From the NCBI RefSeq assembly GCF_003074135.1, contig NZ_PPDK01000003.1, positions 186,001-250,000 of the forward strand: DNA of 64,000 bases. The letters are read 5' to 3'. Under the pieces are notes generated by a model. The model had not been told where the DNA came from. It searched no databases and saw only the letters and a program-made list of their open reading frames with translations. The translations under genes were made by a program, and so were the position numbers. Below, piece after piece: positions 3,501-38,403 of this stretch. Each line of letters opens with the position of its first letter. Within the stretch, counting starts at the first letter, position 1. Source of the DNA: Euzebya tangerina (GTDB taxonomy: Bacteria > Actinomycetota > Nitriliruptoria > Euzebyales > Euzebyaceae).

Positions 3501-6500
3501 GTTGCCCTGCATCCCGCCGCCGAAGTTCGAGGCGGTGTACTCCGCGATCCCGTTGGTCGAGGAGTTGATGATGTCCAGGTAGAGACCGGGGTCGTCGGCC
3601 TGGTAGTCGCACTCGATCGGGTTGTCCGGGAAGTCGGCCAGGGTCAGGCCGGCGGGCAACAGCTCAGAGAAGGTGTGGAACGCCGTCTCGGTCCAGTTCC
3701 CGCCGATCTCTTCGTAGACGTAGACGCCGGCCTCGCTCGGGAACGCGCGGATCGGGGTCGGGTGACCGCCGTAGAAGCCGTCGCCGGTGATGTGGAACAG
3801 CGGGTCGCCGTGCCCTTGGCTGCCGCCCTCGTTGAACTCGTTGGTGCAGTAGTCACCAGCTGCGGCATCGAAGTCGACGCCGGCCTGACCCTCGTGTCCC
3901 TTCAGGGTTCCGGTCGAGTCGTAGATCAGCGGCTGACCACCCCAGTTGGTGTTGGGGCCGTTGTCGGAGGTGTAGAGCTCACCGGATGCGGTGAACACCA
4001 CGTCGTAGGCGTTGCGGTAGCCGGGTGAGTACACCTGGACCGGCTCGCCGGCGTAGGTGATGGCCTGGTTGAGGCCGTTGTTGCCGCCGAAGGGATCGGA
4101 GGTCGAGTCGTCGCGGGACGGATCAACCAGCGTCGGCAGGTTGTACAGGTAGGTCTGACCCTCAGAATCGACCTGGGGGGCCAGCGCGTCCAGCGCGTCG
4201 AGGTCCACGCTGAGCAGTGCCGCGGAGAGGAAGTACTCCGAGGTGCCCGCGAAGTTGTTCGACGGCGCGCCCTTGTTGGCGTGCCCGCCGGACATCACGT
4301 ACAGCGTGTTGGTCGTCGGGTCGAGATCCAGGCCGTTGGTGGCGTGGTTCTCCTCCGACCGTGGCAGACCACGGACCAGCTGGACGTGATCCCAGTCGGT
4401 CCCGTTCCACGTCAGGCGACTGATCACACCGGAGTTGGTGTCGAGCCCCGAGTCGTTGCCGCCACCACCGGCGCCGATGCGCGGGTCGGAGGAGGTCACG
4501 TACAGCACCGGGTTGGCTGCGGTGCCGGCGGTCATCAGACCCGTGACCTGGCGAGTGTTGACGCCGCTGTTCACCGAGCCGTCGTCGTTGTGGTTCACGA
4601 TCTGCTGGACGTCGGTGATCGCCTCGGTCGCGGTCACGTCGTAGTCGTCCGGGCCGTTGCGGACCACGGTGTAGGCGTTGATCAGCCCGTTCTGCTGGCT
4701 GACGTAGAGCCGGTCGTCGGGACCGAACTCGAGCGATGTGGGATTGTTCAGGCTCTCCCCGGCCAGGCCGGAGGAGGAGAATGTCACCGGGATGTCGCTG
4801 GAGCCGATGCCGCCCAGCGCCACCTCGACGGGGGTGTTGGTCCCGTCGTGGACGACGGACAGGGTCGCGCTCTGCGGCCCGGCCGCCGTCGGGGCGAAGG
4901 TCACGCCGATGGTGTCACTGGCACCTGGTGCCAACGTGAGACCACCAGCAGGCAGGTCGGTGCTGAACTCACCGCCGCTGATCTGGGCGTCGGTGATGGT
5001 GATGGCCGGGTCGCCGGTCTCGAAGCCGAGGTTGGTGACCGTCAGGTCCTCGGTTGCCGAGCCGTCGATCAGCACCTGACCGAAGTCGAGGGTTGCCGGG
5101 GCCGCCCCGAGCACGCCCGGGGAGGAGTCGGCCGAGACGACCTCGATGGCGTTGACCAGCGGGTTCTCGACCTCGTTGGAGAAGGCGATGTCGATCGACC
5201 CATCCGAGGTGACGAGGTACTCGAGCATCCCGCCCACCTCGTTGCCGAAGGTGGCCACCAGGTCGAGGTCGTCCTCGACGACGGCGCCGTCGATCGAGAC
5301 GTCGTACACCCGATCTCCGACCGCGCTGGTGCCGGGGAAGCCGTTGCCGAGGAACAGTCGCACAAACACCTGGGTTCCAGCCGGCACGGGGATGCCGTAG
5401 GAGAACCCGGAGTTGCTCCACCGCTCGGTGTCGAAGACCACACCGGGGACGCCCGCTGGCACGGTCGGTCCTGGCTCGACGGCCGCGAAGCCGTTGTTGC
5501 CGTTCGACCCACCGTCGGTGAGGAAGGGGTGCCCGTCAGGGTTGACGTCGGCCTCCCACGCCGGACCGCCGCCGGGGTTCGCCGTCTCGGGACCGCCCGC
5601 GTTGATGCGGGCGAAGACCTGACCGCCGGTCGGTGGCTGGCCGTCGATCTGTCGAACCTCGATGGCCGACACCTTGGCGTTGTCCGCGGTTGATGCGAAG
5701 TCCAGGTTGAGCACGCCATCAGTGACCTGGACCGAGATGGTCTCGATCCGCGCCACGCCGGCCCCGTCCTCGGCGAAGAGGTCGAGGTCGGTCACGATCG
5801 GCTGTCCCTCCGCGGTGGCGGAGAACACCCGGGCGCCGGCCGCACCAGCCGCGTTCGGGGTCGTCGCTGCGCCGAAGTAGATCTCTGCCAGGTGCAGGTC
5901 CACCTCGACGGTGCCGTTCGCAACGGCGAGCTCGTAGGCGAACGGGTTGCCGTAGCGCTCGGTCTGGTACAGCGTCGGGTCGTTCGTGCCGCTGATCGGC
6001 TCGTTCGGCTTCGCGAAGGTCTGGCCGCCGACGAAGCCGGTGTCGGCCGACCACTCGTTGCCCTCGCTGTCGGTGTAGGCCGGTCCACCCGCATTGATGC
6101 GGTGGACCACGGTGACGCCGGCAGTGGAGTCGGTGATCGTCACCGTCGCCTCGTTGGAGACGTTGCCGTCGGTGTCGGCGACGGTGTAGGTGAAGCTGTC
6201 GCCGTCGTTGTCGTCGAAGCCCTGCTCCGCGTTGTAGGTCAGGGCGCCGGCTGCGTCGGGTCCCACGACCGTGCCGCCGGTCGGGCCGCTGGTCACGGTG
6301 ACCGTTGACGGGTCGAGCCCGACGCTTGACGTGTCGTTGGCGAGCACGTCGATGACGGTTGAGGAGCCGGGCTCCGCTGACACCTGGTCATCCACCGCGT
6401 CAGGTGAGGGGTCGAGCGTCGGGTCCAGGTCGAGGACGACGACGTTCGACAGCGGACCGGTGAGCGTCCCCTGGCCGACCACGGCCGCGAAGTAGTTCAG

Positions 6501-9500
6501 ACCCGTGTCGTCGGTGGCCACGCCACCGGTGACCGCGTCGGTCAGCGTGACCGGCACGCTGGCCGTACCCGCGCCGTCCAGGGTCACGTCGATCGTCTGG
6601 ACCGCGATGGCCTTGTTGGCCTCGAAGGGGTCGGGGTCGTAGCTCGGGGTCTGGACGAGGGCGGACTCGAGCCGCAGCAGCCGCACGTCGGTGTCAGCCG
6701 GTCCGGTCACGACGATCGTCTGGGCGGCGTCGGCCACCGCAGCCGCACTGTGAGAGTCCGACAGGTCGGGCTGGGGGGTCAGGGTGACCCCGTCGACGGC
6801 CAGGGTGACCGCGGATCGCGTGTCGCTGGCAGCGGTGACCGACGAGTCGGCCGGGCTGGTCCCGGTCTGGAAGGTCTCCACCACGACGCTTCCGTCGCTG
6901 AAGGCCACGGTGACCGTGCTCCCGGCCAGCTCGAGACCGGAGACGCTGCCCGCGTTGCCGGCGCCGCCCACGTCCTTGATCGAGGTCGGGTCGACGTCGA
7001 CGGCGAAGGCGAAGGTCTCGCCGCTGCCGAAGTCGGTGAACGCGGCCGTCACGGCGTCGAAGCCCTCATCGCCATCGGTGCCGTTGTGCGGCTGGCTGAA
7101 GGGGTCGACGCAGTTGTCGGATGGCACCACGTACCCGGTGGCTGCCACACCTGCGGACGGCTCCAGGCACTTGGCGGTGGCGTCACCCGCCTGACCGACC
7201 GGGTCGAAGACCATGTCAGGCAGGATCGCGGTCGAGAGGTCGTAGGTGACGGACTGGATCGTCTGGCCACCGGTGGAGGTGTTGGTGACCTCGAAGCCGC
7301 CGCCGAAGGTGCTGGCGTCGATGCCACCACCAGGTGCGATGGCCACGTCGGCCGATCCGCCGCTGATCGCCTCCTCCACGACGTTCAGGGTGAACGTCGC
7401 GGTCGCGTCAGGCTCGGCGGTCGGGTCACTGGCCGTCACGGTCACCTCGTAGGTGCCGATGTCGGTCGCGGCCGGGGTCCACTCGATCACGCCCTGGCCC
7501 ACGCCGGGGTTCGGCTGGGTGAACGTTGCACCGAGAGCCGTGATGTCCGGCGTCGAGCTGATCGAGAGGGTGATCGGGTCGCCGTTCGCGTCGGTCGCCG
7601 AGACGGGGATCTGCCCGGCCTGGTCGATGGTCAGGTTCACCGTGCCGATCGGTGCGATCACCGGTGAGGCCGGTGCCGCACTCGGGTCGAGCTCCAGGAT
7701 CACGATGTTGGAGGCGCCGGCGTACCGCGGTGTGTCGGACACCGCCGCGATCAGCTGGTACAGGTCGCCGTTGTTGGCGTCGTGTGTGGTCACTGCGTTC
7801 GGCAGCGCCACCTCGATGGTCGCTGTCCCGGCACCGTCCAGGGTGGCGTCGTAGACGGCGATCGCGTCGGCCCGGTTGGCCTCGAACAGCTCCTTGTCGA
7901 AGCCCTCGGGCTCGTCGTAGCTGGCCTCGACCACCATCAGGCGGACGTCGGCACCTGCGGGTCCCGCGAGCGTGACCTGCTGGGTCGCGTCGGGCACGAC
8001 CGCCGCGGTGGCGCCGCTGGAGAACCCGGTCGGGTTCAGGGTCACCCCGTCGACCGCCAGGTCCAGCGCGCCGGGGACGGCCGCAGCCTGGTCGAGGATC
8101 AGCTGCGAGGCACCGTCACCGACGCCGTTGGCGTCAGCGGCGTCCTGCGCGAACAGCCGTCCGGTCAGGTTGGTCGTGTTCCCGTTCGGGTCGACGAAGG
8201 TCATGGTGACGGTCGAGCCGATCAACTCCAGGCCCGAGATCGCGCCCGAGTTGCCCGTGATCGGGACACCCTGGATGGACGTCGGGTCGTTGTCGACGGA
8301 GAAGCTCAGGGCCTCGCCCGGGTCGAAGTCGTCGAAGGTCAGGTTGAGGACGTCGAACCCGCCTTCGTGCGGGCCGGCGAACATGGAGTTGTCGCAGTTC
8401 GGCGGCGTGCCGCCGTTCGGCTCCTGCAGACCGGTTGCGGTTGCCTGGGCGGCGTCGGGCTCGAAGCACTTGCTGCCGACGTCACCGGCATCGCCATCCG
8501 GGTCGAAGACCACGTCGTTGAAGATCGCCGTGGAGAGGTCCAGGGAGAACGCCGTCAGCTCGACGCCCGGGGTCGAGGTGTTGGTGAACTCGAACGAACC
8601 AGCTGAGAAGGTGCTCGCGTCGATGTCGTTGGAGCCGTCGCTCACGGTCAGCAGCGCACTGGCGCTGCTGGCGATCTCACATCCGGCCTCGTAGTTCTGG
8701 GTCACCTCGGCCGCGGAGAGCGCCGAGTCGTAGATGGCTGTCAGGCACATCGTGCCGAGCCACGGCCGGTCTCCCGATGCCTCGTTCCCGAGGATCAGCG
8801 GCATGGCCGTCCAGTTGGACAGATCGCCGCCGACGGTGGAGGTCTGGACTACCTGCCCGTCCACGTAGATCGTGGTGGCACCACTGGCATCGCGGGTGGC
8901 GACGACGTGGGACAGGTCGGTGCTGGCCGTGCCGGCAGGGGTCGTGGTCGACGGCGTCCCGTTGTCACCGACGGCGGTGCTGCGCAGCCGCAGGTCGAAG
9001 GTGTCGGTCGGCGCATTGCCGAAGGTGCCCTGCCCCAACGTCACGTTCCGGGCGAAGGGCGACTCCGAGAGCGAGACGATCCGGGCCGGACCGCTCTGCG
9101 TGGTGTTCTCGGGGATGATCCACGTCTCGACGGTCACCTCGTTCGACGCCGTGACGGCGTCGGAGACCTTGGTGGCCGGTCCAGCGCTGGCGACGGAGAC
9201 CGAGGCGTTCAGCGCCAGGGCGCCGGGCGTCCAGGTGACGTTTGCCGGATTGTCGATGGTCAGGTCCAGCGGTGAGCCGTTGCCGGAGGTGTCGGCCACG
9301 CCTGCGCCGGCGCCGTCCTCGAACTCGTACAGGACGACCGAGCCATCGACACGCAGGTCCTGCTCGAGGACGGTCCACTCGAACGTCGTCTCATCGAAGT
9401 TGCCACCGGGGTCGGTCGCGGTGACGGTCACGGCGTAGGTGTCGGGGGCTGCGGTGATCTCGCCGGAGATCACACCGGTGCCGGCGTCGATGGCCAAGCC

Positions 9501-12500
9501 GTCCGGCAGGCCCGCGGCAGCGAACTCGATGGTGTCGCCGTCCTCGTCGCTGGCGGTTGCCGTCACCGAGACGACGTCGCCCACCTGGTCCTGCTGATCG
9601 GCGATGCCGTCGATGATCGGGGCGACGTCGACCGCCTGGACGGTCCAGGTGAAGGTGTCGCTGGCCGTACCACCGACGCCGTCGTCGACGGTCACCTCAA
9701 CCGGGTAGACCCCGGCTGACGTCTGGGACAGGTCGCCGGAGATCACACCGGTCTCGCTGTTGATGGACAACGCGTCGGGCAGGCCGGTGGCGCTGAACGC
9801 CAGGGTGTTGTCGTCGACATCATCGGCCTCGACCGGCAGGGCGATGGTCTGGCCCTCGTCGTTGGTCTGGTCGCCGACCGGGGTGATGGTTGGCGGGGAG
9901 TTCTCCGCCAGGACGGTGACGGTGACGGTGGCCTCGCCCGAGAAGTCGCCGTCGTCGTCGGCGATCTGGTAGGTGAAGCTGTCGCTTCCGGGACCACCGG
10001 TTGAGGTGTAGGTGATCTGGCCTCCCGGCGTCACGGTTGTGGTGCCGGCCGACGGCGGGGTCACGACCTGGACGCTGGCGAGGTCCAGGGTGCCGTCGGG
10101 GTCGCTGTCGTTCGCGGCGACATCGATGTCGATGGAGCCACCGGTCACCACCGCGGCGTCATCGTCGACCGCGGTCGGGGGGACGTTCGGGATGGTGATC
10201 GTCCAGGTGAACGAGGTGCTGCCGCTGGCGCCGTCGGGGTCGGTGGCCGTCACGGTGACGGGGTAGGTACCGCCGGCATCGGGTGCCACCGTGCCGGAGA
10301 TCAGACCTGTTGAGTCGATGTCGAGGTCTGCGGGCAGACCGGTTGCGCTGAAGGTGACCGGGTCCCCGTCGGCGTCAGTTGCCGTGGCCGTGAGGGAGAC
10401 GACGTCTCCGGGGTCGTTGGTCTGGTCAGCGATGGGGTCGACGACGGGGCTGGCGTTGTCGTCGGTGGCGCTGCAGCCGTCCTGCCGCAGGGCCAACTCC
10501 GCCTGCGTGTGGACCTCGTCGTAGATGGCGGCGTAGCAGTAGATGCCCAGCCAGGGCCGGTTCGAGCCGGACTCGTTGCCCAGCAGCAGCGGCATCGTCG
10601 AGGCCCAGTTCGCCAGGGATCCACCGGCGTTGCCGGTCGCGACGACGGCGCCGTCGACGAGCAACTCGGTGTTGCCATCAGCATCGCGGGTGAAGGTGAC
10701 GTGCTGCGGGTCGCCGGTGACCGCGTTCGCCGGACTGGTCAGCGACGGGGTCCCGTTGACCGAGGTGGCCGTCGACCGCAGGCGCACGTCCAGGGTGGTC
10801 TGTGGGTCCTTGCTGCGTCCGCCGCCCTGACCGACGGTCAGGTTGCGCGTCGTCGAGGAGTTGGAGATCGACAGGATGCGGGCCGGGCCGAACTGGTTCT
10901 GCGGGACAGCCTGGATGTACAGGTCGACCGTCACCTCGCCGGTGGCGCCGACGGCGTCAGTCACCTTCGTGGCCGCACCGCCGCTGCTGATCGTGGTCGC
11001 GGCGTCGACCGACAGACCACTGGGCAACCACGTCGTGTTCGCCGGCTGCTGGATGGTCAGGTCGAGGGGTGTGCCGACGCCGGAGGAGTCAGCGACCGTG
11101 GTGCCGCTGCCGTCGTCGAAGCGGTACTCGACCACCGGTGAGACGTCGACGGCGAGGATGGTCAGGTCGAACGTCTCGGTGGCCTCACCATCGGTGGGGT
11201 CCGAGGCGGTGATGGTGACCGTGCTGGTGCCGGGCGTTGCCGCGGTCCCCGTGATGAGGCCGCTGCTCGCATCGATCGCCAGGTCGTCGGGCAGGCCAGC
11301 GGCCGCGAAGGTCACCGCATCCCCGTCCGCGTCCGTGGCGACGACCTGCAGCTCGAAGGCTCCGGTGGCGACCTGCTGGCCGGCGATGGGCACGATCGTC
11401 GGTGCGACGTTCACCGGGTTGACCGTGAAGGTGAACGACTCGGTGTCGGTCCCACCCAGCCCGTCGTCAGCGGTCACCTCGACCGGGTAGCTGCCGGCCG
11501 AGGTCTGGGACAGCGTGCCGCTGATGGCCCCGGTGTCCGGGTCGATCGACAGGTCGACGGGCAGACCGGTGGCGCTGAATGCCAGGGGGTCGCTGTTCGG
11601 GTCGCTCGCCGTCACCGCCAACGCGATCTCATCACCCTCGTCGGCGGTCTGGTCGGCGATGGGATCGATGGTCGGGGCGGCGTTGGCCGCACGGACGGTG
11701 ACCGTCACCGTCGCCGTGTTGGAGGTCTCGCCCTCGTCGTCGTCGATGGTGTACGTGAACGTGTCGTCGCCCAGGGCGCCGGTGGAGGTGTAGGTGACCT
11801 CGCCGCCGCCATCGACGCTGACCGTGCCCTCGCTGGGCTGGTCGACGATCGCAATCGATTCGAGGTCGAGCGAGCCATCGCTGTCCACGTCGTTGGCGGC
11901 CACGTCGATGGTCACGGTCTCGTCCTGCACGACGACTGCGTCATCGTCGTTCGCGGTGGGAGGGACATTGACGGTCTCGCAGCCGGCGTCGTAGTTCTGA
12001 TCGACCTCGGCGGCGTTCAGGGCGGAGGCGTACACCGAGACCAGGCAGTAGCGACCCAGCCACGGTCGGCTCCCGCCGACCTCGTTGCCAAGCAGCAACG
12101 GCATGCTGGCCCAGTTGCCCAGGGTTCCACCAGCGGAGCCCACGGCCGCGACGGCGCCGTCGACGTACGTGGTGGTCGTGCCGCTTGCCGCCCGGGTGAA
12201 CACGACGTGCTGCAGGTTGGTCGTCGCGGTGCCCTCGGGGGTCGTCAACGACGGCGTGCCGTTGTTGTTGGTCGCCGTGGTGCGCAGCCGCGTGTCGAAG
12301 ACGGTCGTCGGCTGGCTGCCGAACAGGCCTTGACCGATGGTCAGGTCGCGCTTGGTCGACGACTGGGAGATGGAGAAGATCCTGGCTGGCCCGTCCTGGG
12401 TGGTGTTGGACGGCTCGATCCACAGCTCCACGGTCACCTCCCCCGACCCCTCGATCGCATCGGTCACCTTGTCGGCGTTGCCCGAGGACTGGATCGTGGT

Positions 12501-12797
12501 CGCGGCGTCCACCGTCAGGCCCCCAGGGCCCCAGGTGGTGTTGGCCGGGGCGGCAACGGTCAAGTCAAGCGGTGCACCGATGTCGGAGGAGTCGCCGACT
12601 ACTGAGCCAGTGCCCTCCGTGAAGTCGTACAGCGCGATCGCACCGTCGACTCGCTCAGCTGCGCCGGCGGTCGGGATCGCGGTGGGTAGGACGACGGCGA
12701 TGACGGCGAGGACGGCCACCACGATCGCGGCAAGGCGGACCGAGAAAACTCGTCCGTCGGCGCGCTTCGTGGTCAGGGCCGTAGCGACTGCGTGCAT
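570..12797 (-). CDS. Giant secreted multidomain protein (LamG, Ig-like, malectin, beta-propeller)
   Basis: About 4,075 residues. The chosen start is ATG at 12797, preceded by AAGGA at suitable spacing; the frame stays open upstream to 12950. A signal peptide of ~47 residues ends near TAGAA. Approximate order: LamG-like jelly roll 48-270; cadherin/Ig-like (VANDVD, He_PIG type) 275-545; LamG 553-770; Ig-like modules to ~1140; LamG 1146-1373; an unrecognised ~320-residue module at 1380-1703 and again at 1816-2124; malectin-like (RINAGGP) from ~2230 and ~2394; choice-of-anchor/ASH-like domain 2562-2663; six-bladed sorbosone-dehydrogenase/NHL-like propeller 2683-3166; thrombospondin-type-3 Asp-rich calcium repeats 3186-3240; a further lectin-like sandwich to ~3490; malectin-like from ~3602 and ~3896. 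No sortase motif or C-terminal membrane anchor is visible. Likely a surface or released carbohydrate-binding or adhesion protein (inference). The domain calls are by eye. Confidence 0.85.
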
Positions 12798-12996
12798 GGT
12801 GAGGGTCCTTGGTTCGAGGGCACAGCTGGCTCGAGCTGATCCCCGAGAGAGCACATGGCCCTTGTCAACAAGTCGCAAAGTGGCGCGCCCGGCGGGACCC
12901 GGTACGCGCTCCCCCAGCCGGGGGTGCCGGCCGCTGGAGGGCGGTTTCACGCTTCGGTGTCAGACCGCCACCGGCCAGGACCTCGAAGGAATCACC
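12798..12996. promoter_or_regulatory. Divergent upstream region of the giant gene and the acyl-CoA synthetase
   Basis: 199 bp between divergent starts. On the minus strand a TTGACA -35-like hexamer occupies 12868-12863, which would leave an untranslated leader for the giant gene; the matching -10 is weak. The right half holds GC-rich hairpins (CCCCC/GGGGG, and GGCGGT/ACCGCC near 12945-12970). On the plus strand GAAGGA at 12985-12990 is the ribosome-binding site of the synthetase. No riboswitch class was recognised. Confidence 0.35.
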
Positions 12997-23025: not shown

Positions 23026-23938
23026 CCGAGACCCGGGGCTCGGACGAGGCGCTGCCAACCCTCGGACCGGCGACGAGTACGACGAGGCCGAGCAGGATCA
23101 GACCGCAGCCGATCGCGGCTGCGGCGGACAGCCGTTCCCCCAGCACTGCCAGGCCCAGGACCGCGGCCGTCAGCGGCTCAGCCAGGCTGAGCGTCGCGGC
23201 TGCCGAGGCGCTGACGAATGACAGCCCGACCCCGAACAGCAGGTAGGCCGCCACGATGGTCGCCGCCGCCAGCCACAGGACCATAACGACCCCCCGCCCC
23301 GTCCCAAGGCCCGTCCGGTCGCTGAGGAGGAGCACCGGGAGGAGCACCACCCCTCCGGCCAGGAAGATGCGGGACATCGCCAGATCCGAGGGCATGCCGC
23401 CGTCGATCAACGCCTTCGCCGACAGCGTGTAGACGGCGTAGCTGGCACCGGCGAGCACAGCCAACAGGACACCCGTCACCACCACGTCCCCGGCTCCGGG
23501 CCCGGCGAGGAGGACGACGCCGAGCGTCGAGATGACCGTGGCGACCCGCCAGCGGAGGTTGGGCGCACGACGGTGCAGCACCGCCTCGAGCACCCCCGTC
23601 AGGGTGGGCGCCGACCCGATGGTCACCGCCGTGCCCAGAGCTACCCCCGCCTGGTCCACGGCCGCGAAGAAGGCCACCTGGTAGCCGGCCACGGCCAGAC
23701 CACCGAGCAACGCGATCCTCCAACGCCGGCCGGACCCGACCGCCGACCCCTCGCGCTCCCCGACCCGTCGCCGGATGAGGTGCACCCACGCCACCAGCAG
23801 GACGCTGCCGAACACCAGCCGGGCGGCCCCGACGGCGAGAGGTGTGCTGCCGTCCGGCCCGAGTGCCTGCGCCGTCCCCGTGGTCCCCCACAGCACCGCG
23901 CCGGCCATCAGGAGCAGGCCGCCTCGGCGGGGACTCAT
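23018..23938 (-). CDS. EamA/DMT-family transporter
   Basis: 306 residues, about ten hydrophobic helices in two EamA halves ([11 protein letters not shown] near the N-terminus; [20 protein letters not shown] near the C-terminus, the classical EamA repeat end). Probable inner-membrane exporter of amino acids or other metabolites, substrate unknown. Start ATG 23938; the frame is open 17 codons further but that would overlap the upstream gene, which ends 13 bp away on the same strand. Likely co-transcribed with 23952-24410. Confidence 0.85.
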
Positions 23939-23951
23939 CGCGTGCGGCCCG

Positions 23952-24410
23952 CTATCCGTCCAGCTCAGAGAAGTCCGTCGCCGCGTCACCGTCCGGCGTC
24001 ACCGGCTGGTTCTGCGCGATCACCTGTGCCAACCGTCGTGGCAGGGCGTCCAGCACCGCACGGACACTGGCCACGAGCGCATCGGTGCGGACGAAAGCCG
24101 TTCCGAGCAGCCGTTCCGTCCGCAACTGATCGGTGACGGTCACGGCCGCCGTGACGTACCCGGACCGGTCCAGCTCCGGCACGGCCGCGTGCTCCACCAC
24201 CCACGCAAGGCTCACCGTGGCCCCGGAGGGCGCCATCGTGGTCACGGCGGCACACGCGGCCTCGGCCGCCGCCGCCAGCTCATCATCGTCGGTCACCTGG
24301 GCCTCGCCGGAGGCCAGTCGACCCTCGTCGTCCAGCGTCACCTCGATCAGCGTGTCGTCCATCCGCTTGCGAACGATGGTGATGATCGGCCGGAACACGG
24401 AATCGGTCAT
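23952..24410 (-). CDS. Hypothetical protein, acidic and Ala-rich
   Basis: 152 residues, no signal peptide, membrane segment or recognised domain. It begins [22 protein letters not shown] 24410 lies ten bases behind a TAGGCT hexamer on the minus strand and 27 bp from the divergent clpS start, so it is probably transcribed from a shared promoter region. It precedes the EamA transporter by 13 bp. The tight intergenic spacing and consistent coding bias support a real gene. Confidence 0.6.
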
Positions 24411-24420
24411 GAGTCCGCAC

Positions 24421-24430
24421 AGCCTACAAT
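24421..24430. promoter_or_regulatory. Interleaved divergent -10 elements (clpS and 23952-24410)
   Basis: The ten bases AGCCTACAAT hold a plus-strand -10 TACAAT (24425-24430) seven bases before the clpS ATG, and a minus-strand -10 TAGGCT (24426-24421) ten bases before the opposite ATG. The whole gap is 27 bp, so both mRNAs would be leaderless or nearly so. Confidence 0.65.
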
Positions 24431-24437
24431 CGTGCAG

Positions 24438-24734
24438 ATGGCCGCTCCGTTGATCGCCCCGGAACGCGAGGACCTTGCAGACACCGACACGGTCGATGAA
24501 CACGACCGCCCCTGGAACGTGGTCGTCTGGAACGACCCGGTGACCTTGATGTCCTATGTCGTGTTCGTCCTCCGCAAGCTCTTCGGTTTCTCCGAGCAGA
24601 AGGCCACCCAGCTGATGATGCAGGTCCACGAGGAGGGCAAGGCCATCGTGTCCAGCGGCACCCGCGACGAGGCCGAGGTCGACGTGCACCGTCTGCACGC
24701 CAACGGACTGCAAGCAACGTTGATGCAGGACTGA
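24438..24734 (+). CDS. clpS: ATP-dependent Clp protease adaptor ClpS
   Basis: 98 residues. Delivers N-degron substrates to ClpC/ClpP. The ClpS core is clear: [43 protein letters not shown] and the C-terminal [12 protein letters not shown], with an acidic N-terminal tail. ATG 24438 follows TACAAT by seven bases with no Shine-Dalgarno sequence, which suggests a leaderless mRNA. A DUF2017 gene follows 18 bp later, the usual actinobacterial arrangement. Confidence 0.93.
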
Positions 24735-25941: not shown

Positions 25942-26016
25942 CTGAAGGGCAGATGTCCTCCGTCAGCGGTCGCGGCCGTCGGCGTCACGCGCCCTGCCGA
26001 TGCGGCGGCCCCTGCC

Positions 26017-26022
26017 TACCGT
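26017..26022 (+). promoter_or_regulatory. -10 element of the MauE-like operon
   Basis: TACCGT ends seven bases before GTG 26030, the distance typical of leaderless actinobacterial promoters. It heads the six-gene operon to 30734. Confidence 0.5.
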
Positions 26023-26029
26023 GGGAGGC

Positions 26030-26560
26030 GTGGAGATCGCCTCGGCCCTGACCGCCGTCACCTGGATCGGTGCCGGCCTGCTGATCCTGGCCGGAGTCAT
26101 CAAGTTCCCGGTTCCGGACGGGGCGATGGCCGGACTGCACAGCCTCGGGCTCCCCTCGGGCCGGGTGTCCGCGCGGGTGCTCGGCGCGGCGGAGATCCTG
26201 ATCGGCCTAGCCATCACCATCACGGGCGGGGTGGTTGCTGCGGGACTGACCGTGATCACCTACACCGCGCTGACCGTCGTCGCCGCACGACAGCGCGCCA
26301 AGCAGGTGGACTGCGGCTGCTTCGGCGTCAAGACCTATCCGGTGTCCCGGCTGCACCTCGGCGTCAACGCGGGGCTCGCCGTGACCGGCACCGCGGGACT
26401 GTGGGCACAGCCCCTGGCGCTGGGCGACGTCGCGTCGGAGGCCGGTGTCCTGGGGATGCTCGCCGGCGTCGTGCTCACCGCAACCGCCGTGGGACTGGTC
26501 ACCACGTCGACCGAACGGGCCGGCCAGGCCGAGGCTGCCCGGCTGGTCGCGACCCGCTGA
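26030..26560 (+). CDS. MauE/DoxX-like redox membrane protein
   Basis: About 176 residues with four hydrophobic helices and a Cys pair in the short motif DCGCFG near residue 95, between helices three and four, as in the MauE/DoxX family. MauE together with MauD is needed for disulfide formation and folding of the methylamine dehydrogenase light chain (family knowledge). Here it heads an operon whose last gene encodes an 18-Cys exported domain, so a disulfide-forming role is likely. Start uncertain: GTG 26030 is favoured by the TACCGT spacing; GTG 26021 and ATG 26000 are in frame. Confidence 0.75.
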   Translation: MEIASALTAVTWIGAGLLILAGVIKFPVPDGAMAGLHSLGLPSGRVSARVLGAAEILIGLAITITGGVVAAGLTVITYTALTVVAARQRAKQVDCGCFGVKTYPVSRLHLGVNAGLAVTGTAGLWAQPLALGDVASEAGVLGMLAGVVLTATAVGLVTTSTERAGQAEAARLVATR

Positions 26561-26604
26561 GCCCGTCGGACCATCCCTGAACTGACCCTGAAGGCCTGAT
26601 CACC

Positions 26605-27393
26605 GTGACCGTCGTCGTCTCCCTCCTCGCCATCGTCGTCGCCATCCTGGCGGTGTTGGTCGTCGGCCTGCTGCGCACCAACGCCGAGGTGCTGCGAGCC
26701 CTCGAAGAACTCGGCGCGGGGCTCGAGGAGGGTGGCCCCGGCGCCCGCCACCGCACTGACGCGCAGCCGGGCCCGTACGCCAAGACAGGCCGGCCGGCCA
26801 TCGACATCACCGGACGGACGCTGGATGGCGGCACCCAGGGCATCCGGGTCACCAACGCCGGCCACGACACGCTGCTGCTGTTCCTCTCCAGCGGCTGTCT
26901 GACCTGTCGCAGCTTCTGGGACCAGATGCGCGAGCCGGGAGGCCTGGGGCTGCCCTCCCGAATCCGAACCGTCGCGGTCACCAAGGACCTGGATGCCGAG
27001 AGCCCGTCCGAGCTTGCGGAGTTGGTGCCCACCCGGGGTGCCCAGCACATCATGAGCTCGCAGGCGTGGGCTGACTACGCCGTCCCGGGGTCTCCCTACG
27101 CGGTGCTGGTCGGTGGCAGCGAAGGACGGGTGATCGGCGAGGGAACGGGGACCTCGTGGGAGCAGGTCGGCAACCTGCTGTCCCAGGCCACCGGGGACCT
27201 CGCCTACGTAGGTGAGGAGACCCCACGGACCGCGAAGTCGGGGCGGGACATGCTGGTCGAGCGTGACACCGACGCCGAACTGCTGGCCGCGGGCATCCGG
27301 CCGGGTGATCCCTCCCTCTACCCGGACACCGCCGGGGAGTCCGCCGACCAAGCGCCGACGGGCTCGGCGAACGTGACGCCTCCTGAGCCATGA
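26605..27393 (+). CDS. Membrane-anchored MauD-like thioredoxin-fold protein
   Basis: 262 residues. One N-terminal signal-anchor helix (~4-24) is followed by a short linker and an extracytoplasmic thioredoxin/AhpC-type domain with the redox motif SSGCLTCRSFW, Cys98-x-x-Cys101. A cis-Pro region (VPGSPYAVLV) is present near 170. A ~60-residue polar tail follows. The arrangement anchor plus CxxC plus MauE neighbour mirrors MauD, a disulfide donor or isomerase for the Cys-rich light chain. GTG 26605 has GAAGG ten bases upstream. Its stop overlaps the ATG of a microprotein. Confidence 0.8.
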   Translation: MTVVVSLLAIVVAILAVLVVGLLRTNAEVLRALEELGAGLEEGGPGARHRTDAQPGPYAKTGRPAIDITGRTLDGGTQGIRVTNAGHDTLLLFLSSGCLTCRSFWDQMREPGGLGLPSRIRTVAVTKDLDAESPSELAELVPTRGAQHIMSSQAWADYAVPGSPYAVLVGGSEGRVIGEGTGTSWEQVGNLLSQATGDLAYVGEETPRTAKSGRDMLVERDTDAELLAAGIRPGDPSLYPDTAGESADQAPTGSANVTPPEP

Positions 27394-27464
27394 TCGCCGC
27401 CGTGCTGATCGCGCTGCTGGCGCTGGCCCTCCTCGCCGCCATCCAGACCCAGTGGTCGCCCTGA
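27390..27464 (+). CDS. 24-residue single-span membrane microprotein
   Basis: An ATG overlaps the TGA of the thioredoxin gene (ATGA), giving a 24-residue product: MIAAVLIALLALALLAAI, then QTQWSP and a stop. It is one hydrophobic helix with a tiny polar tail. The next gene starts nine bases later behind GAGGGGAG. Translational coupling on both sides supports a real gene. A role as a small subunit or stabiliser of the redox membrane complex is inference. Confidence 0.55.
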   Translation: MIAAVLIALLALALLAAIQTQWSP

Positions 27465-27473
27465 GGGGAGTCG

Positions 27474-28061
27474 ATGCTGTCCAGCATCTCCCCGGTCGGG
27501 GAGATCTCACGCAAGCAGCGGTGGGGTATCACGGTCACCGCGTACGTACTCGGGTCGGTCGTGGCCGGAGGTCTGCTGGGACTGCTCCTCGGTTGGACCG
27601 GGGAGGCGCTCCCCGGCCAGATGGCGGCCTCCACCCGCCTCGCCCTCATCGGCGGGGTTGCGATCCTCGGCGTCGTCGTGGATGCCACCGTCGGCGTGCC
27701 GACCCTGCACCGGCAGGTCGATGAGCGCTGGTTGACGGAGTTTCGTGGCTGGGTCTACGGACTGGGGTTCGGGCTGCAGCTCGGCACCGGGATCCTGACG
27801 ATCATGCCGTCGAGCATCGTGCTGACCACGTGGATCGGCGTGGTCATCGGCGCTGATCCGCTGATCGGCGCGATCACCGGGCTGACCTTCGGGGCCGCCC
27901 GGGCTGCACCACTCGTCGTGGCAGGACGCGTGCGGACAGTGTCAGCCTTGCGACGAACGCTCCGCTGGATGGACACGGTCAGGCCGTCAGTGCGCCGTAG
28001 CATGCCGTGGGCACAGGGCGTCATCGGTGTGGCCGCGGTAGCCACGCTGGGCCTCGGATGA
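27474..28061 (+). CDS. Polytopic membrane protein of the MauE/MauD-like operon
   Basis: 195 residues with about five hydrophobic segments (around 17-45, 53-73, 90-115, 115-150 and 175-195). GWVYGLGFGLQLGTGILTIM and GADPLIGAITGLTFGAARA are Gly-rich membrane stretches. No Cys pair is visible. Its position matches that of MauF-like or CcdA-like proteins in mau clusters, but no convincing family motif is seen. The start is ATG 27474 behind a strong GAGGGGAG. Role unknown. Confidence 0.7.
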   Translation: MLSSISPVGEISRKQRWGITVTAYVLGSVVAGGLLGLLLGWTGEALPGQMAASTRLALIGGVAILGVVVDATVGVPTLHRQVDERWLTEFRGWVYGLGFGLQLGTGILTIMPSSIVLTTWIGVVIGADPLIGAITGLTFGAARAAPLVVAGRVRTVSALRRTLRWMDTVRPSVRRSMPWAQGVIGVAAVATLGLG

Positions 28062-28077
28062 GAACGAGATAGGCATC

Positions 28078-28563
28078 ATGCGCATCGACGATCACGGGTT
28101 CCGCATCGACCTTCCCACTCCTTGGGAGGGCGCGGTCAGCAGCGGCCAGGTCAGCCGGACGGTGAGCGAGCGCGCGGCCCGGCGGGGCCTGACGGTCCAG
28201 ACCCCGCCGGTCCTCCACCTCTCCAGCACCCAGATGCCATCCCTGCGCGGTGACTTCGGATCCGGTGCGGTGGACCTGCTCACCGCCGGCGACGCCTTCA
28301 TCGCCGTCGTCGAGTACGGCACCGAGGTGCTCGGAACGGCGACCTTCGACACCGGCCCGATGCCGCGACGGCTCAACTCTCGGGACTTCCAGCCGAACGG
28401 TCTGCAACGACAGATCCCCGGACAGGCCGGTTACCAGCACTTCTGCACCGAGAACGGTCGTCCGCTGTGCCTCTACGTCGTCATCGGTGCGACCCACCAG
28501 GCGCGCCGACTGACCCGCCAGGTCAACACCATCCTCCCCCGGCTGGAGATCGCGTCGCGATGA
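28078..28563 (+). CDS. Hypothetical soluble protein of the MauE/MauD-like operon
   Basis: 161 residues, no signal peptide or membrane segment. It begins MRIDDHGFRIDLPTPWEG and contains two Cys (HFCTENGRPLC). It looks like a compact alpha/beta domain with a C-terminal basic helix (ARRLTRQVNTILPRLE). Start ATG 28078 behind GATAGG. Its TGA overlaps the ATG of the Cys-rich wall protein, so expression is coupled. It may be a cytoplasmic chaperone or quality-control factor for that Tat substrate (inference). Confidence 0.65.
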   Translation: MRIDDHGFRIDLPTPWEGAVSSGQVSRTVSERAARRGLTVQTPPVLHLSSTQMPSLRGDFGSGAVDLLTAGDAFIAVVEYGTEVLGTATFDTGPMPRRLNSRDFQPNGLQRQIPGQAGYQHFCTENGRPLCLYVVIGATHQARRLTRQVNTILPRLEIASR

Positions 28564-30734
28564 CCCCAACCCTGCCCACCACCCTGCTCTCCGAGGCCTC
28601 GACCGGTCGGGACGACCGCCCGCTCTCCGTCCGCGCGGTCGATCGAGTCACCACGCTGCTGGCGCGCCGCCGCGGCGATGGCGCCACGGACCCCTCACGC
28701 CGCAGCTTCGTGCAGCGCGCCGCGCTCATCGGCACCGCACTGGCCGTCAACCCGATCGACTTCATCCTGCGGCCCGGCACCGCCTACGCCCAGGTGTGCG
28801 GCCCGGCCAACGAGTGCAGCCAGGGCTGGACCGCCTTCTGCTGCACGATCAACGGGGGGGCGAACACCTGCCCGGACGGGTCGTACGCGGCCGGCTGGTG
28901 GAAGGTGTCCTCCTCGGCCTTCTGCCGCGGCGAGGATCGGTACGTCGTGGACTGCAACCGGCTGCCGTCGGCCCGCTGCTCCTGCCGCTGCGCGGACGGC
29001 CCGTGCGACCGGCGTCGGATCTGCTGCAACAACTTCCGGTACGGGCAGTGCAACCTGCAGATCCCCGGCACGACGGAGGTGGTCTGCCGCATCATCATCT
29101 GCACTCCGCCGTGGGAGTGGGACGAGAGCTGCACCACGACCGTCCGGTCCGACGAGCGGACCCGGGACCACTCGGCCTCCTGCCTGCCGGGCACCAACCC
29201 GACGGAGATCGAGCTGGTCTACCTCGACCTCGGCCTCGTCGGCTCTGCCCTGGGTGCCCCTGCTGGCGAGGAGCTGGCCGGTCCGGACGGCGGCTCGTGG
29301 CGTCGGTATGCCAACGGCTCGATCGTCCGCTCACTGGACTACGGGATCGCAGTGCTGACCGGGGCGGCGGGGCTCCTCTACGCCGACGAGGGCGGCCCCG
29401 ACGGACGGCTGGGATACGTCACCGGCGACCCGATCGACATCGAGGGTGGCCAGATCATCCCGACCGAGGGTGGGGCCATCTACTCGCTCGAGGACGGAAC
29501 CGCCTTCACGCTCTCCGGGTCCCTCGAGGCCAAGTACAACCAGACCGGTGGCCTTGATGGCTGGTTGGGCCTGCCCACCTCGGCGATCCTGCTGAGCCCC
29601 GGCAACCGCGAGCGCATCGACTTCTCCTCCGGCTGGTCGCTGGTCCGTGACCGGGCCACGGACGAGGTCCGCGTGTTCCCGGTGGACGTGGAGATGCCCG
29701 CGGAGGCCGGCGAGTGGCCCCCGACCGCCGACGTCGTGCGATGGGACGGTGACAATCGCCTGACGACGGCCATCCGGATCTCCCAGGAGTCCCTCCCCGA
29801 CGGGGCGCCGATGGCGGTCTTGGCGGCAGCCGACTCCTTCCCGGACGCCCTGGCGGGTGGCGTGCTGGCTGGCATCGAGGGCGGACCGGTGCTGCTCACC
29901 GGGTCCGACTCCCTTGCGTCGGTGACCGCCGCCGAACTCGAGCGTCTGGAGGTCGAGCGGGTCGTGCTCGTCGGCGGTCCGTCCGTTCTGTCCGGCGCTG
30001 TGGCCGACGACGTCCGAGCTCTGCTGCCGGATGCCAGCGTCCAACGCCTGTCGGGAGAGAGTCGGTTCGCGACGGCGGCCGCGGTCTCCCAGGACATCAC
30101 CGGTGAGCTGGGTGGAATCGATACCGGGACCGACACCTCAACCGGCGGCGGTGAGCGGGTACCGCTGGTGTACCTGGCCAGCGGGCGGGACTTCCCGGAC
30201 GCGCTGTCGGCCAGCCCGGCCGCCGCAGGGGCGGGCGCACCACTGCTGCTCACCGAGCCGGACGTACTGCCCGATGTCACCCGTACGGAGCTGCAGCGCC
30301 TGAACCCGGAGCGGGTCGTCATCGTGGGTGGTCAGGCCGCTGTCTCCGGTGCCGTGGACCGGGACGTCAGGCGGTCGACCGACGCTCGGATCGACCGGAT
30401 CGAGGGGCCGTCGCGCTACGACACCGCTGCTGCCGTCGTCGCCCAGACCCATCCGGCTCCGCTGGGTGATGGGGAGGCGACCCGCATCCTGCTGGCGACC
30501 GGCGAGACCTTCGCCGACGCGCTGTCGGCGGGCACCGCTGCCGCGAACGGCGGGTCGCCGCTGCTGCTGGTGAGCACCGACCTGGTCCCGGGCATAACCC
30601 GGTCGGCGATCGAGCGGCTCCAGCCGCAGGCCCTGGTGGTGAGCGGCGGGACGGTGGCGGTGAGTGCGGCAACGGCGGAGCAGCTGGGTGGGCTCCCCAC
30701 GGGTGAGTACCGCGTCCGCGCACCGGGCACCTGA
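28560..30734 (+). CDS. Tat-exported Cys-rich (MADH light-chain-like) protein with LGFP and CWB2 repeats
   Basis: 724 residues. A twin-arginine signal (SRRSF, Arg47-Arg48) has probable cleavage after TAYA near 77. Residues 79-220 hold 18 Cys in a pattern resembling methylamine dehydrogenase light chain (NTCPDGS..GWW..C, CC, CRIIIC). Trp113/Trp114 match the first tryptophylquinone Trp region, but the second position appears to be Ile180, with Trp185 and Trp187 nearby. LGFP-like repeats (~215-390) and three CWB2 cell-wall-binding repeats (~392-720) follow. Probably a wall-bound disulfide-rich protein folded by the MauE/MauD-like pair encoded upstream. ATG 28560 overlaps the preceding stop. Whether it has enzymatic activity cannot be told. 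Confidence 0.8.
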   Translation: MTPTLPTTLLSEASTGRDDRPLSVRAVDRVTTLLARRRGDGATDPSRRSFVQRAALIGTALAVNPIDFILRPGTAYAQVCGPANECSQGWTAFCCTINGGANTCPDGSYAAGWWKVSSSAFCRGEDRYVVDCNRLPSARCSCRCADGPCDRRRICCNNFRYGQCNLQIPGTTEVVCRIIICTPPWEWDESCTTTVRSDERTRDHSASCLPGTNPTEIELVYLDLGLVGSALGAPAGEELAGPDGGSWRRYANGSIVRSLDYGIAVLTGAAGLLYADEGGPDGRLGYVTGDPIDIEGGQIIPTEGGAIYSLEDGTAFTLSGSLEAKYNQTGGLDGWLGLPTSAILLSPGNRERIDFSSGWSLVRDRATDEVRVFPVDVEMPAEAGEWPPTADVVRWDGDNRLTTAIRISQESLPDGAPMAVLAAADSFPDALAGGVLAGIEGGPVLLTGSDSLASVTAAELERLEVERVVLVGGPSVLSGAVADDVRALLPDASVQRLSGESRFATAAAVSQDITGELGGIDTGTDTSTGGGERVPLVYLASGRDFPDALSASPAAAGAGAPLLLTEPDVLPDVTRTELQRLNPERVVIVGGQAAVSGAVDRDVRRSTDARIDRIEGPSRYDTAAAVVAQTHPAPLGDGEATRILLATGETFADALSAGTAAANGGSPLLLVSTDLVPGITRSAIERLQPQALVVSGGTVAVSAATAEQLGGLPTGEYRVRAPGT

Positions 30735-35935: not shown

Positions 35936-36802
35936 ATGTCACCGCTCACCGTAACCAAGGATCGTGCTGAGACCGAGGAGGCACTGATCCGAGCCAACCT
36001 TCCCCTGGCGCACTACGGGGTCGCCGAAGTAGCCGGTCGAGTCCCCAAGCACGTCTCCCGCGACGACCTGGAGAGCGCCGCCATGTATGGCCTCGCCCAA
36101 GCCGCGCGGGCCTTCGACCCGGACAAGGGCATCGACTTCGACAAGTACGCGATGATCCGGATCCGCGGGGCTCTGCTCGACGAGCTGCGCTCGCGTGACT
36201 GGGCCAGCCGGGGAGTGCGGGCGGCGGCACGCCAAGTTGAGGCGGCGAAGGAACGGCTCACGGCCCGCCTTGGCCGGACCCCCTCCGAGGCAGAGACGGC
36301 GGCCGAGTTGGGGTGCTCGATCGACAAGGTGCAGCAGATCCGCCACGACGTCCACCGGGGCACGGTGCTCAACTACGAGTCGTTCTTGGCCGACGGCGAG
36401 GTGGCGGACATCCTGCCGGCCCCGGAGCCGACGCCGCTCGAGCAGATGATGTCGCGCGAGAAGCGGGCCTTCCTGCTCGACGCTGTGGTCGCGCTCCCCG
36501 ACCGTCTGCGGCACGTGGTCGTCGGCTACTTCTTCGAGGAGCGGCCGATGCAGGAGATCGCTGGTGAGCTTGGGGTCACCGAGTCGCGCGTGTCCCAGAT
36601 GCGCGGCGAGGCCCTCCGCCTGATGCACGCCGGCATCACGGCCAACCTCGATCCTGCGTTGTTGCCACCCGAACCCCGTCCAGCAGGCCGGGTCGCCGCC
36701 CGCAAGGCGACCTACTATCGTGCGGTTGCCGCTGGGTCCCAGGTGTCTGAGCGCCTGGCCGCGACCCCCCGCCCACTGGCCGACCGATTGGCTGCCGCGT
36801 AG
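35936..36802 (+). CDS. FliA/WhiG-type sigma-70 factor
   Basis: 288 residues with regions 2, 3 and 4. Region 2 (DDLESAAMYGLAQAARAFDPDKG, then FDKYAMIRIRGALLDELRSRDWASR) is diagnostic of the FliA/WhiG class; region 3 has GRTPSEAETAAELG; region 4 has RHVVVGYFFEERPMQEIAGELGVTESRVSQM. The ~45-residue tail after region 4 is unusual. No flagellar genes are in the window, so a development or surface regulon is likelier (inference). A secreted CWB2 protein follows after 50 bp and may be co-transcribed. ATG 35936 lacks a clear Shine-Dalgarno sequence. Confidence 0.88.
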   Translation: MSPLTVTKDRAETEEALIRANLPLAHYGVAEVAGRVPKHVSRDDLESAAMYGLAQAARAFDPDKGIDFDKYAMIRIRGALLDELRSRDWASRGVRAAARQVEAAKERLTARLGRTPSEAETAAELGCSIDKVQQIRHDVHRGTVLNYESFLADGEVADILPAPEPTPLEQMMSREKRAFLLDAVVALPDRLRHVVVGYFFEERPMQEIAGELGVTESRVSQMRGEALRLMHAGITANLDPALLPPEPRPAGRVAARKATYYRAVAAGSQVSERLAATPRPLADRLAAA

Positions 36803-36852
36803 CCACCAGGAGCAACATACGCTTGGTCGGACCGTTTCCGAGGAGCTATGCA

Positions 36853-38403
36853 ATGCGTTCGACACCAGCCGACCTGCCACGCCTGAGCAGCCTGGCCGGA
36901 GCCCTGTTGCTGCTGGCAGCGCTCCTCGTGACGGCGACGCCGGCCGCCGCTGAGTCCGAGTGCTACGGCGACGCTGCCGGCGACGTTCGCGACAACGCCG
37001 CCACGGCTGCCGGTGAGGGCGGCGTGGTGCTCGGGGACGAGCCACGCATCGACATCCTCGCGGGGTGCGTCGAGCTGACGCCGGAGTTCGTCGAGATCGC
37101 CGTCCGCGTCGTGGACGCCGTCGACCCGATGGAGGACCCGTCCTGGGGGGCTGGGGAGGCTGCCATCGGTGCGGCCATCGACCTCGGTGGGGACCTCAGC
37201 AGCGAGGGCAACGCCGTGGAGGAGTACACCGTCAACTACGGACTGCTGCCCGAGGGTGAGATCGGCGTGGCGGTCTACGAGTTCGACCCGGACATGCAGG
37301 GCAGTGGTCTGCCGGTGTGCGAGGGCGACGGCATCTACGACGGCGTGCGGTACCGCATGCGATTCCCCACCTCCTGCATCGGTGACCCGGCCCAGATCAG
37401 CGCCGCCGTCTTCGGGCTGTACGGCTCTGATGTGGACAACCAGGCGACCACGGGCTTCTACGACGAGGTGCCGATCTTCCCGGACTACAACGGCCCCTAC
37501 ACCCCCGCTCCAGACCCGCCGACTGATGTTGAGCGGTTGGCCGGCCCAGCCCGCGTCGACACCGCCATCGCCGTCAGCCAGGATGACTTCGAGGCCGGCA
37601 CGGCGGGTGCGGTCGTCCTCGCCCGAGCTGACCTGTTCCCCGATGCGCTGGTGGCCGCCCCTCTGGCCGTTGCCGTGAATGGCCCGCTGCTGCTGACACC
37701 GAGCTTCGCGGTCGCACAGATCGTGGAGGACGAGATCGCCAGGGTCCTGCCGCCAGGCGGGACGGTCTACCTCTCAGGCGGCGAGGCGGCCCTCAGCGCC
37801 GATGTCGCGGCCGAGATCGAGGCGCTGGGCTACGTCGTCCAACGCGCTGCCGGTCCGAGTCGCTACGCCACGGCCGTGGAGGTCGCGCGGGCCTCCGGAC
37901 CCGACCCCGATCTGATCGTGGTGGCCAACGGAAACGACTTCCCCGAGGCTCTCGTCGGAGGCTCCCTGGCCGCCGCAGAGGGTGGCGTCGAGATCATCTC
38001 CAACGGCGAGCAGTTGGACGACACGGCCACGGCCTACCTGGCCGAACACCCGGACGCTGAGGTCCTTGCCATCGGGCCGGTTGCCTCGGCTGCCGTTCCC
38101 GACGCCGCCTCGATCAGCGGCCCGGATGTGTTCACCACCTCGGTCCTGGTCGCGCAAGAGCGCTACACCGATCCGACCGCCGCGGGCATCGCCAGCGGCA
38201 CGAACTTCCCTGATGGGTTGACCGGTGGCGCCAACGCCGGTCGGCGTGGCGTGCCGCTGCTGCTGAGCACCCCCGATCTGCTGCCGGACAGCGTGGACGC
38301 CTACTTGGACGGCTTGGACCTGCAGACCACCGTCATGTACGGCGGCACCGTGGCTCTGGCCTACCAGGTCGAGGCGTCGGTCGACGCGAACATCGGGAAC
38401 TAG
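36853..38403 (+). CDS. Secreted protein with CWB2 cell-wall-binding repeats
   Basis: 516 residues. A signal peptide (hydrophobic LAGALLLLAALLVTATPAAA) cleaves near 35. A ~190-residue N-terminal domain (ESECYGDAAGDVRDN onward) is unrecognised. Then come three CWB2 repeats (each with the pattern R..TA..VS, FPDAL and GG..L), from DVERLAGPARVDTAIAVS near 234 to the end. CWB2 trimers anchor proteins to wall polymers by non-covalent binding. ATG 36853 has AGGAG seven bases upstream. It follows the sigma-factor gene by 50 bp. Confidence 0.88.
   Translation: MRSTPADLPRLSSLAGALLLLAALLVTATPAAAESECYGDAAGDVRDNAATAAGEGGVVLGDEPRIDILAGCVELTPEFVEIAVRVVDAVDPMEDPSWGAGEAAIGAAIDLGGDLSSEGNAVEEYTVNYGLLPEGEIGVAVYEFDPDMQGSGLPVCEGDGIYDGVRYRMRFPTSCIGDPAQISAAVFGLYGSDVDNQATTGFYDEVPIFPDYNGPYTPAPDPPTDVERLAGPARVDTAIAVSQDDFEAGTAGAVVLARADLFPDALVAAPLAVAVNGPLLLTPSFAVAQIVEDEIARVLPPGGTVYLSGGEAALSADVAAEIEALGYVVQRAAGPSRYATAVEVARASGPDPDLIVVANGNDFPEALVGGSLAAAEGGVEIISNGEQLDDTATAYLAEHPDAEVLAIGPVASAAVPDAASISGPDVFTTSVLVAQERYTDPTAAGIASGTNFPDGLTGGANAGRRGVPLLLSTPDLLPDSVDAYLDGLDLQTTVMYGGTVALAYQVEASVDANIGN

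Follow-up and report, generated by a model that had tools for sequence, protein, structure and literature searches.

A stable methylamine dehydrogenase (MADH) light chain with its disulfides requires MauE and MauD, and MauF is the third partner of this system. All three have genes in the Paracoccus denitrificans mau cluster (mauFBEDACJGMN, NC_008688). Here we describe a related cassette in a 64,000-nucleotide stretch of the Euzebya tangerina genome (contig NZ_PPDK01000003.1, positions 186,001 to 250,000; hereafter the window), in which genes for MauE-like and MauD-like proteins lie beside that of an exported cysteine-rich protein and a frame that we read as a selenocysteine form of MauF. We consider that the cassette probably comprises a MauF-MauE-MauD (MauFED) maturation module together with its substrate and that MauF is a selenoprotein, and we put the probability of this reading as a whole at about 0.78.

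The MauF frame and its Mau partners

An earlier sequence-only reading of the window had called the system mau-like and divided it into six genes, including a 24-residue membrane peptide and a polytopic membrane protein. All six open reading frames (ORFs) are present on the plus strand with overlapping or short junctions, and the CGCFG motif, the CLTC motif and the 18 cysteines of the last product were borne out. The peptide and the polytopic protein did not stand as separate genes, because they form one TGA-interrupted frame: the ORF at 27390-27464 ends ...QTQWSP-TGA, and the next ORF (27474-28061, 195 codons) carries this frame on as GES-MLSSISPVGE. This WSP-TGA-GxSMLxSI arrangement was found at nearly every locus with the membrane protein, and neither the frame nor the zero gap varied. 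Across 97 related loci, the codon at the TGA position was TGA in 79, TGC in 14 and TGT in 4, and never TAA or TAG; the loci with a cysteine codon (Cys form) read straight through, as in locus L088 (...RGMWSPCGLSMLSTITPLAEKLRG).

The MauF annotated in the P. denitrificans mau cluster contains STWSPCGYSSISLLRP (WSPCG). A profile of the read-through actinobacterial proteins matched it with 89.7 bits (E=4.9e-25 at Z=50000) along 212 residues, the alignment occupying positions 9-220 of 228 and spanning both sides of the TGA, including WSP-C/U-G. Because the proteobacterial MauF aligns across both halves, the plus-strand frame 27390..28061 (223 amino acids) is, as judged from this homology, a selenocysteine (Sec) form of MauF that replaces the two shorter ORFs. 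The mau-like claim is strengthened in that this third accessory protein, which had been split into two genes, appears to be present as a selenoprotein. The TGA at 27462..27464 (plus strand) would encode Sec at residue 25, in the motif WSP-U-GES; the window protein has this single Sec and no Cys. In the predicted model (pLDDT, the predicted local distance difference test score, 93.7), the Sec lies between a helix at 2-22 and a short helix at 24-32. A fold search with the model returned only generic transporter-like and Rnf/Nqr matches, with Z<=7.

In a family profile search across 296 sampled Actinomycetota genomes, MauF was found in 53, each read-through stop being TGA, and the TGA form was present in 45 of the 296, or about one sampled actinomycete species in seven. 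In one genome (G100, locus L187), MauF occurs in both the Cys form and the TGA form. MauF has no model in either Pfam or NCBIfam, which may be why the family went unnoticed, and the joined protein gave no significant match in Pfam and NCBIfam release 20 (June 2026). The family was apparently missed in annotation as well, which throws away the 24-codon peptide and keeps a shortened membrane protein without the catalytic residue.

The two neighbouring identities proposed from sequence alone proved to be those of true homologues. The polytopic membrane protein with DCGCFG encoded at 26000..26560 (plus strand) matched Pfam MauE PF07291 (E=2.8e-14, 54 bits against a gathering cutoff of 27), its family profile matched P. 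denitrificans MauE (E=1.2e-9), and the CGC motif was kept in 81/87 MauE family matches. This gene had been placed from 26030; we take the ATG at 26000 as its start and regard 26030 as an alternative GTG start. The membrane-anchored thioredoxin with a CLTC active site encoded at 26605..27393 (plus strand, GTG start) had no Pfam or NCBIfam match on its own and fell below the TIGR02661 cut-off, whereas its family profile matched P. denitrificans MauD (E=2.9e-10), with CxxC present in nearly all family members; because of this combination, its predicted product is MauD-like rather than MauD proper. When the MauE, MauD and MauF profiles were run against the P. denitrificans mau locus, no further protein scored meaningfully. 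Overall, the profile evidence makes homology of the three proteins to MauF, MauE and MauD practically certain.

RNA signal and selenocysteine machinery

Directly 3' of the TGA lies a perfect hairpin resembling a selenocysteine insertion sequence (SECIS), GAUGCU-GUCC-AGCAUC, at 27473..27488 (plus strand), with an alternative or second hairpin at about 27486-27505 (plus strand). In the family, the first hairpin consists of 6 bp with a 4-nt loop immediately after the TGA and is usually followed by an 8-bp hairpin. All 6 pairs of hairpin 1 were kept at 60/74 TGA loci compared with 2/18 Cys loci, with double changes from C-G to G-C, and shuffling of synonymous codons gave a mean z of -1.76 +/- 0.13 for TGA loci (n=75) and -0.05 +/- 0.27 for Cys loci (n=18). 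These patterns suggest that the hairpin is a SECIS-type signal and a candidate for SelB binding.

The host genome encodes the required machinery, namely selA (427 bits), selB (323 bits), selD (380 bits) and a tRNA-Sec with anticodon TCA, which was detected by both ARAGORN and RF01852. Because the tRNA-Sec covariance model was too permissive across the phylum, SelA and SelB were taken as the test instead. Among 30 genomes reached via the loci, 17/17 of the TGA form had a SelB-like frame, as did 2/13 of the Cys form (p=1.4e-6); this p-value, like others from such genome correlations, overstates independence because the genomes are related and the tree has only about 3 Sec/Cys changes. In the phylum sample, SelA was found in 42/45 TGA-form genomes and in 0/4 Cys-form genomes.

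Several observations count against this assignment. The second hairpin of the window takes an alternative form, unlike the family consensus. SelA was also present in 143/251 other genomes of the phylum sample, and three TGA-form genomes (68%, 73% and 94% complete) had no detected SelA. SelB was told from EF-Tu by the length of the frame, and most Cys forms, in line with the few Sec/Cys changes on the tree, belong to a single clade. TGA makes up 93% of the ordinary stops at these loci, so that the identity of the stop, taken alone, is weak evidence (P about 0.003). The absence of TAA and TAG as evidence for Sec was rejected as weak for the same reason, since neighbouring genes also stop with TGA at that frequency.

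That frequency, together with an ATG four codons past the TGA in 74/79 loci and a GGRGAG-like stretch ahead of this ATG in many of them, speaks for a different explanation, in which the TGA is a real stop, the 24-residue product is a conserved membrane peptide, and translational coupling lets synthesis of the polytopic protein begin afresh at the ATG. We consider this very improbable. A Cys occupies the position in 18 homologues and in proteobacterial MauF, where the protein is continuous; the frame and the zero gap are constant; the RNA signal is missing from the Cys loci; and the occurrence of the family follows that of the Sec machinery. A new start at the downstream ATG is itself unlikely because the ATG sits inside the conserved hairpin stem and because loci L185 and L186 have no start codon there, their first in-frame start lying at codon +8. 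Overall, the sequence comparisons make it highly probable that this MauF is a selenoprotein, and from them we infer selenium incorporation itself.

The cassette and its cysteine-rich exported protein

The last gene of the cassette (28560..30734, plus strand) encodes a 724-residue cysteine-rich protein predicted to be exported by the twin-arginine translocation (Tat) pathway, with a twin-arginine leader (SRRSF, residues 46-50) ahead of the Cys core. The 18-Cys core domain (28791..29201, plus strand; AlphaFold model pLDDT 92) retains 12 Cys that are invariant in 66 sequences. It is followed on the same strand by an LGFP repeat at 29250..29405 (PF08310, E=3.7e-7) and by CWB2 cell-wall-binding repeats in three stretches with approximate limits of 29730..30720 (PF04122, E=3.1e-47), so that the fusion of a Cys-rich Tat substrate to LGFP and CWB2 modules was confirmed as first described. 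The variable Cys of the core are lost in pairs, as disulfides predict: Cys 18 and 131 are both present in 50 sequences and both absent in 16, Cys 9 and 67 are both present in 54 and both absent in 12, with no discordant sequence for either pair, and Cys 63 and 78 are both present in 51 and both absent in 14, with 1 discordant. We therefore take these Cys to form disulfides.

Between mauF and this gene, at 28078..28563 (plus strand), lies a gene for a small soluble protein of 161 residues with no Pfam or NCBIfam match. It was present in 97/104 loci examined and is as conserved in the cassette as MauE and MauD. Relatives of the Cys core occur in 26/296 sampled Actinomycetota genomes, and a profile pattern search confirmed 251 relatives in the contigs of named genomes, ranging over Nitriliruptorales, Acidimicrobiales, Intrasporangiaceae, Nakamurella and Frankiales. 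Neighbourhoods were counted at the 37 loci whose 7-kb flanks were complete on both sides. MauE, MauD, MauF and the soluble protein were all encoded at 31/37, and MauE and MauD near the core at 35/37, which bears out both the expectation of a conserved gene set and the corollary that the Cys-rich protein almost never occurs without MauE and MauD genes. The cassette thus recurs across Actinomycetota beyond chance, in a variable gene order, with the core last in Nitriliruptoria and Intrasporangiaceae and second in others.

The two exceptions were loci L114 and L071. In L114, MauE alone is missing from the cassette. In L071 (6998-7858), the gene is a second Cys-core copy in its genome, is fused to a ricin-type lectin domain and has no mau genes within 7 kb, and the same isolate also carries a full cassette (L068) and a TGA-form MauF. 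Where a window-type core lacked an adjacent MauF, MauF was encoded elsewhere in 11/13 genomes.

More distant MauF clades, whether with TGA or Cys, also adjoin MauE and MauD, together with two other Tat-type Cys-rich families. The second family (L176-L190 and L193), found beside Sec-MauF, MauE and MauD, has the motifs CGHTYTTGSCPHP...GGGWSRCC...DCC and CGHTYTTGSCPHP...GGGWSRCCGGRIRRIYDCCSYS.TRINGD...FCIGYRDLNTRC, and its gene in L180 ends 71 nt before the TGA. The third (VCGQSGVAPKC...CDCCAPN...) neighbours MauE, MauD and MauF of the TGA form; its genes are at L185:5101-6492, L186:4846-6243 and L192:4635-6143, and the L185 protein gave a near-threshold CWB2 match. Because other Cys-rich families accompany MauFED and MauF is found elsewhere in most genomes whose core lacks it as a neighbour, the results suggest that maturation by MauFED is of general use and not tied to a single client.

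Relatives of the core protein swap their C-terminal modules freely: LGFP, LGFP with CWB2, FG-GAP, bulb-type or ricin-type lectin domains, unassigned repeats or none. Because these modules vary, wall binding is not what stays constant in the protein. The proposal that a mau-type module has been reused to fold a cell-wall protein is still the best reading for the window, without extending to wall binding in all relatives.

The sequence-only reading had also likened the Cys core to the MADH light chain and remarked on the missing heavy subunit, MauG and amicyanin; support for the likeness was weak. The core, alone or as a profile, had no match in Pfam, NCBIfam or the sequences of the PDB, and specifically none to PF02975 or TIGR02659; PF02975 gave nothing above cut-off across the 296 genomes. 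Local profile-profile comparison by hhalign with MADH light chains gave E=0.02, a score reached by 11/200 column shuffles, and global mode gave nothing, while the registers were alike (CPPG...GxxRYxxDCN in the core and CPPG...GQSYLIAYRDCC in the light chains). Foldseek found no significant match between the core model and the PDB. With a second-look aligner, 4/5 entries with Z>=2 were aromatic amine dehydrogenase (AADH) light chains, at a weak Z of 2.4-2.6 over 72-76 residues. The second substrate family (L176-L193) shows a weak similarity to the core of the window (3/120 shuffles as high); as a bridge to the MADH light chain it was rejected, the score not being significant (36/120 shuffles as high). 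No CCP_MauG was detected in the host genome, and neither a heavy chain nor amicyanin is encoded in the cassette; the heavy-chain search of the genome (PF06433) found none either, with an uninformative control. Taken together, ancestry of the core from a MADH light chain is a plausible distant kinship for which we see even odds.

Elsewhere in the window, a second CWB2 protein (36823-38403) is encoded immediately after the gene for a sigma-70-type factor (region 35936-38403), and a 4126-residue ORF on the minus strand (570-12950) encodes a giant surface protein with Ig-like (He_PIG, Big_9), malectin, LamG and cadherin-like domains. Shortly before the cassette, a 319-residue ORF with a C-terminal ClpS domain (23775-24734) is followed by genes for a DUF2017 protein and a TetR regulator; the ClpS domain may be fused, or the true start may lie further downstream.

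Proposed pathway and comparison with known systems

We propose that the substrate would be exported by Tat and its 18-Cys core locked by disulfides. Outside the membrane, MauD would exchange thiols and disulfides with the substrate through its membrane-anchored CxxC, and MauE (CGC) and MauF (lone Sec or Cys) would recharge MauD or set its redox state within the membrane. The Sec of WSP-U-GES, placed by the predicted model at the start of the short helix after the first transmembrane helix, would as a selenol speed thiol-disulfide exchange. The mature protein would then be kept at the surface by its swappable C-terminal modules, here LGFP and CWB2. That MauFED serves to mature the Cys-rich exported protein is likely from the gene associations; an oxidising or isomerising direction is only slightly favoured, and we infer the redox direction, the order of the partners and the cell-wall location. 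Two points tell against the proposal: the single Sec or Cys of each MauF does not explain the electron route, and sequence comparison gives no significant homology between the substrate and the MADH light chain.

The same components could instead run as a reducing pathway, in which reductant passed across the membrane keeps cysteines reduced or isomerises wrong disulfides. The MauD CxxC and a membrane protein with Sec or Cys resemble the logic of reducing systems such as DsbD and CcdA; on the other side, the paired loss of Cys indicates that the final core needs many disulfides, and CcdA and DsbD were not among the MauF fold neighbours listed, which does not exclude kinship. We regard a reducing role as unlikely, although clearly less so than the next two ideas. 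In one, the Cys-rich protein would act as a redox enzyme in its own right, with a cofactor derived from the protein, and MauFED would prepare it as in methylamine dehydrogenase. Its best structural neighbours are light chains of dehydrogenases with tryptophan tryptophylquinone (TTQ), MauF, MauE and MauD are all conserved, and the GWW motif is kept; but the structural Z is low, the only Trp conserved in the 66 sequences are the adjacent W36 and W37, with no distant second invariant Trp, and the genome search gave neither CCP_MauG nor, with its uninformative control, a heavy chain. The core as a TTQ enzyme was rejected for its missing second Trp and MauG, and we hold the broader redox-enzyme idea to be improbable. 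Scarcely less doubtful is the suggestion that MauFED is a widespread Sec-dependent pathway of Actinomycetota that acts beyond disulfides, the membrane Sec of MauF helping to install a covalent modification or redox centre in several families of Tat-exported Cys-rich surface proteins and so making extracellular redox enzymes.

Disulfide maturation by a Sec-containing MauFED would tie selenium use to surface-protein folding in a bacterial phylum of soils and saline habitats. Exchange of Sec for Cys and removal of selB would offer a handle on the maturation of Cys-rich exported proteins, for which Janibacter terrae, Knoellia koreensis and Kineosphaera limosa are among the culturable carriers.

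Compared with the MADH and AADH light chains (PF02975, 2agl, 1mg2), the core is likewise a small Cys-rich exported domain, with a weak structural match (Z 2.6 over 72 residues) and several Cys similarly spaced (36->46 in the core and 17->27 in the light chain, 109->121 and 87->99). It differs in having no hidden Markov model match and no second TTQ Trp, in its 18 Cys, 12 of them invariant, and in its fusion to LGFP, CWB2 and other modules. Like the P. denitrificans mau cluster, the cassette places MauF, MauE and MauD by a Tat-type Cys-rich protein with a long RR leader. Unlike that cluster, it has a predicted Sec in MauF where P. denitrificans has Cys, encodes an extra conserved soluble protein, lacks a heavy chain and amicyanin in a genome with no CCP_MauG, and has a substrate core that sequence does not detectably identify as a MADH light chain and that bears surface modules. 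As to selenoproteins, a catalogue of 119 prokaryotic families (May 2026; PMC13188914) has no membrane family that is MauF-like or carries WSPUGxS, nor does the deep-Sep paper (PMC12013277) list one. Literature searches, of partial coverage and so no proof of novelty, returned no report of MauF or MauE selenoproteins. The MauF selenoprotein family appears to have been previously unrecognised, and it resembles the catalogued prokaryotic selenoproteins in its in-frame UGA, its Cys homologues, the hairpin 3' of the UGA and the Sec machinery of its host.

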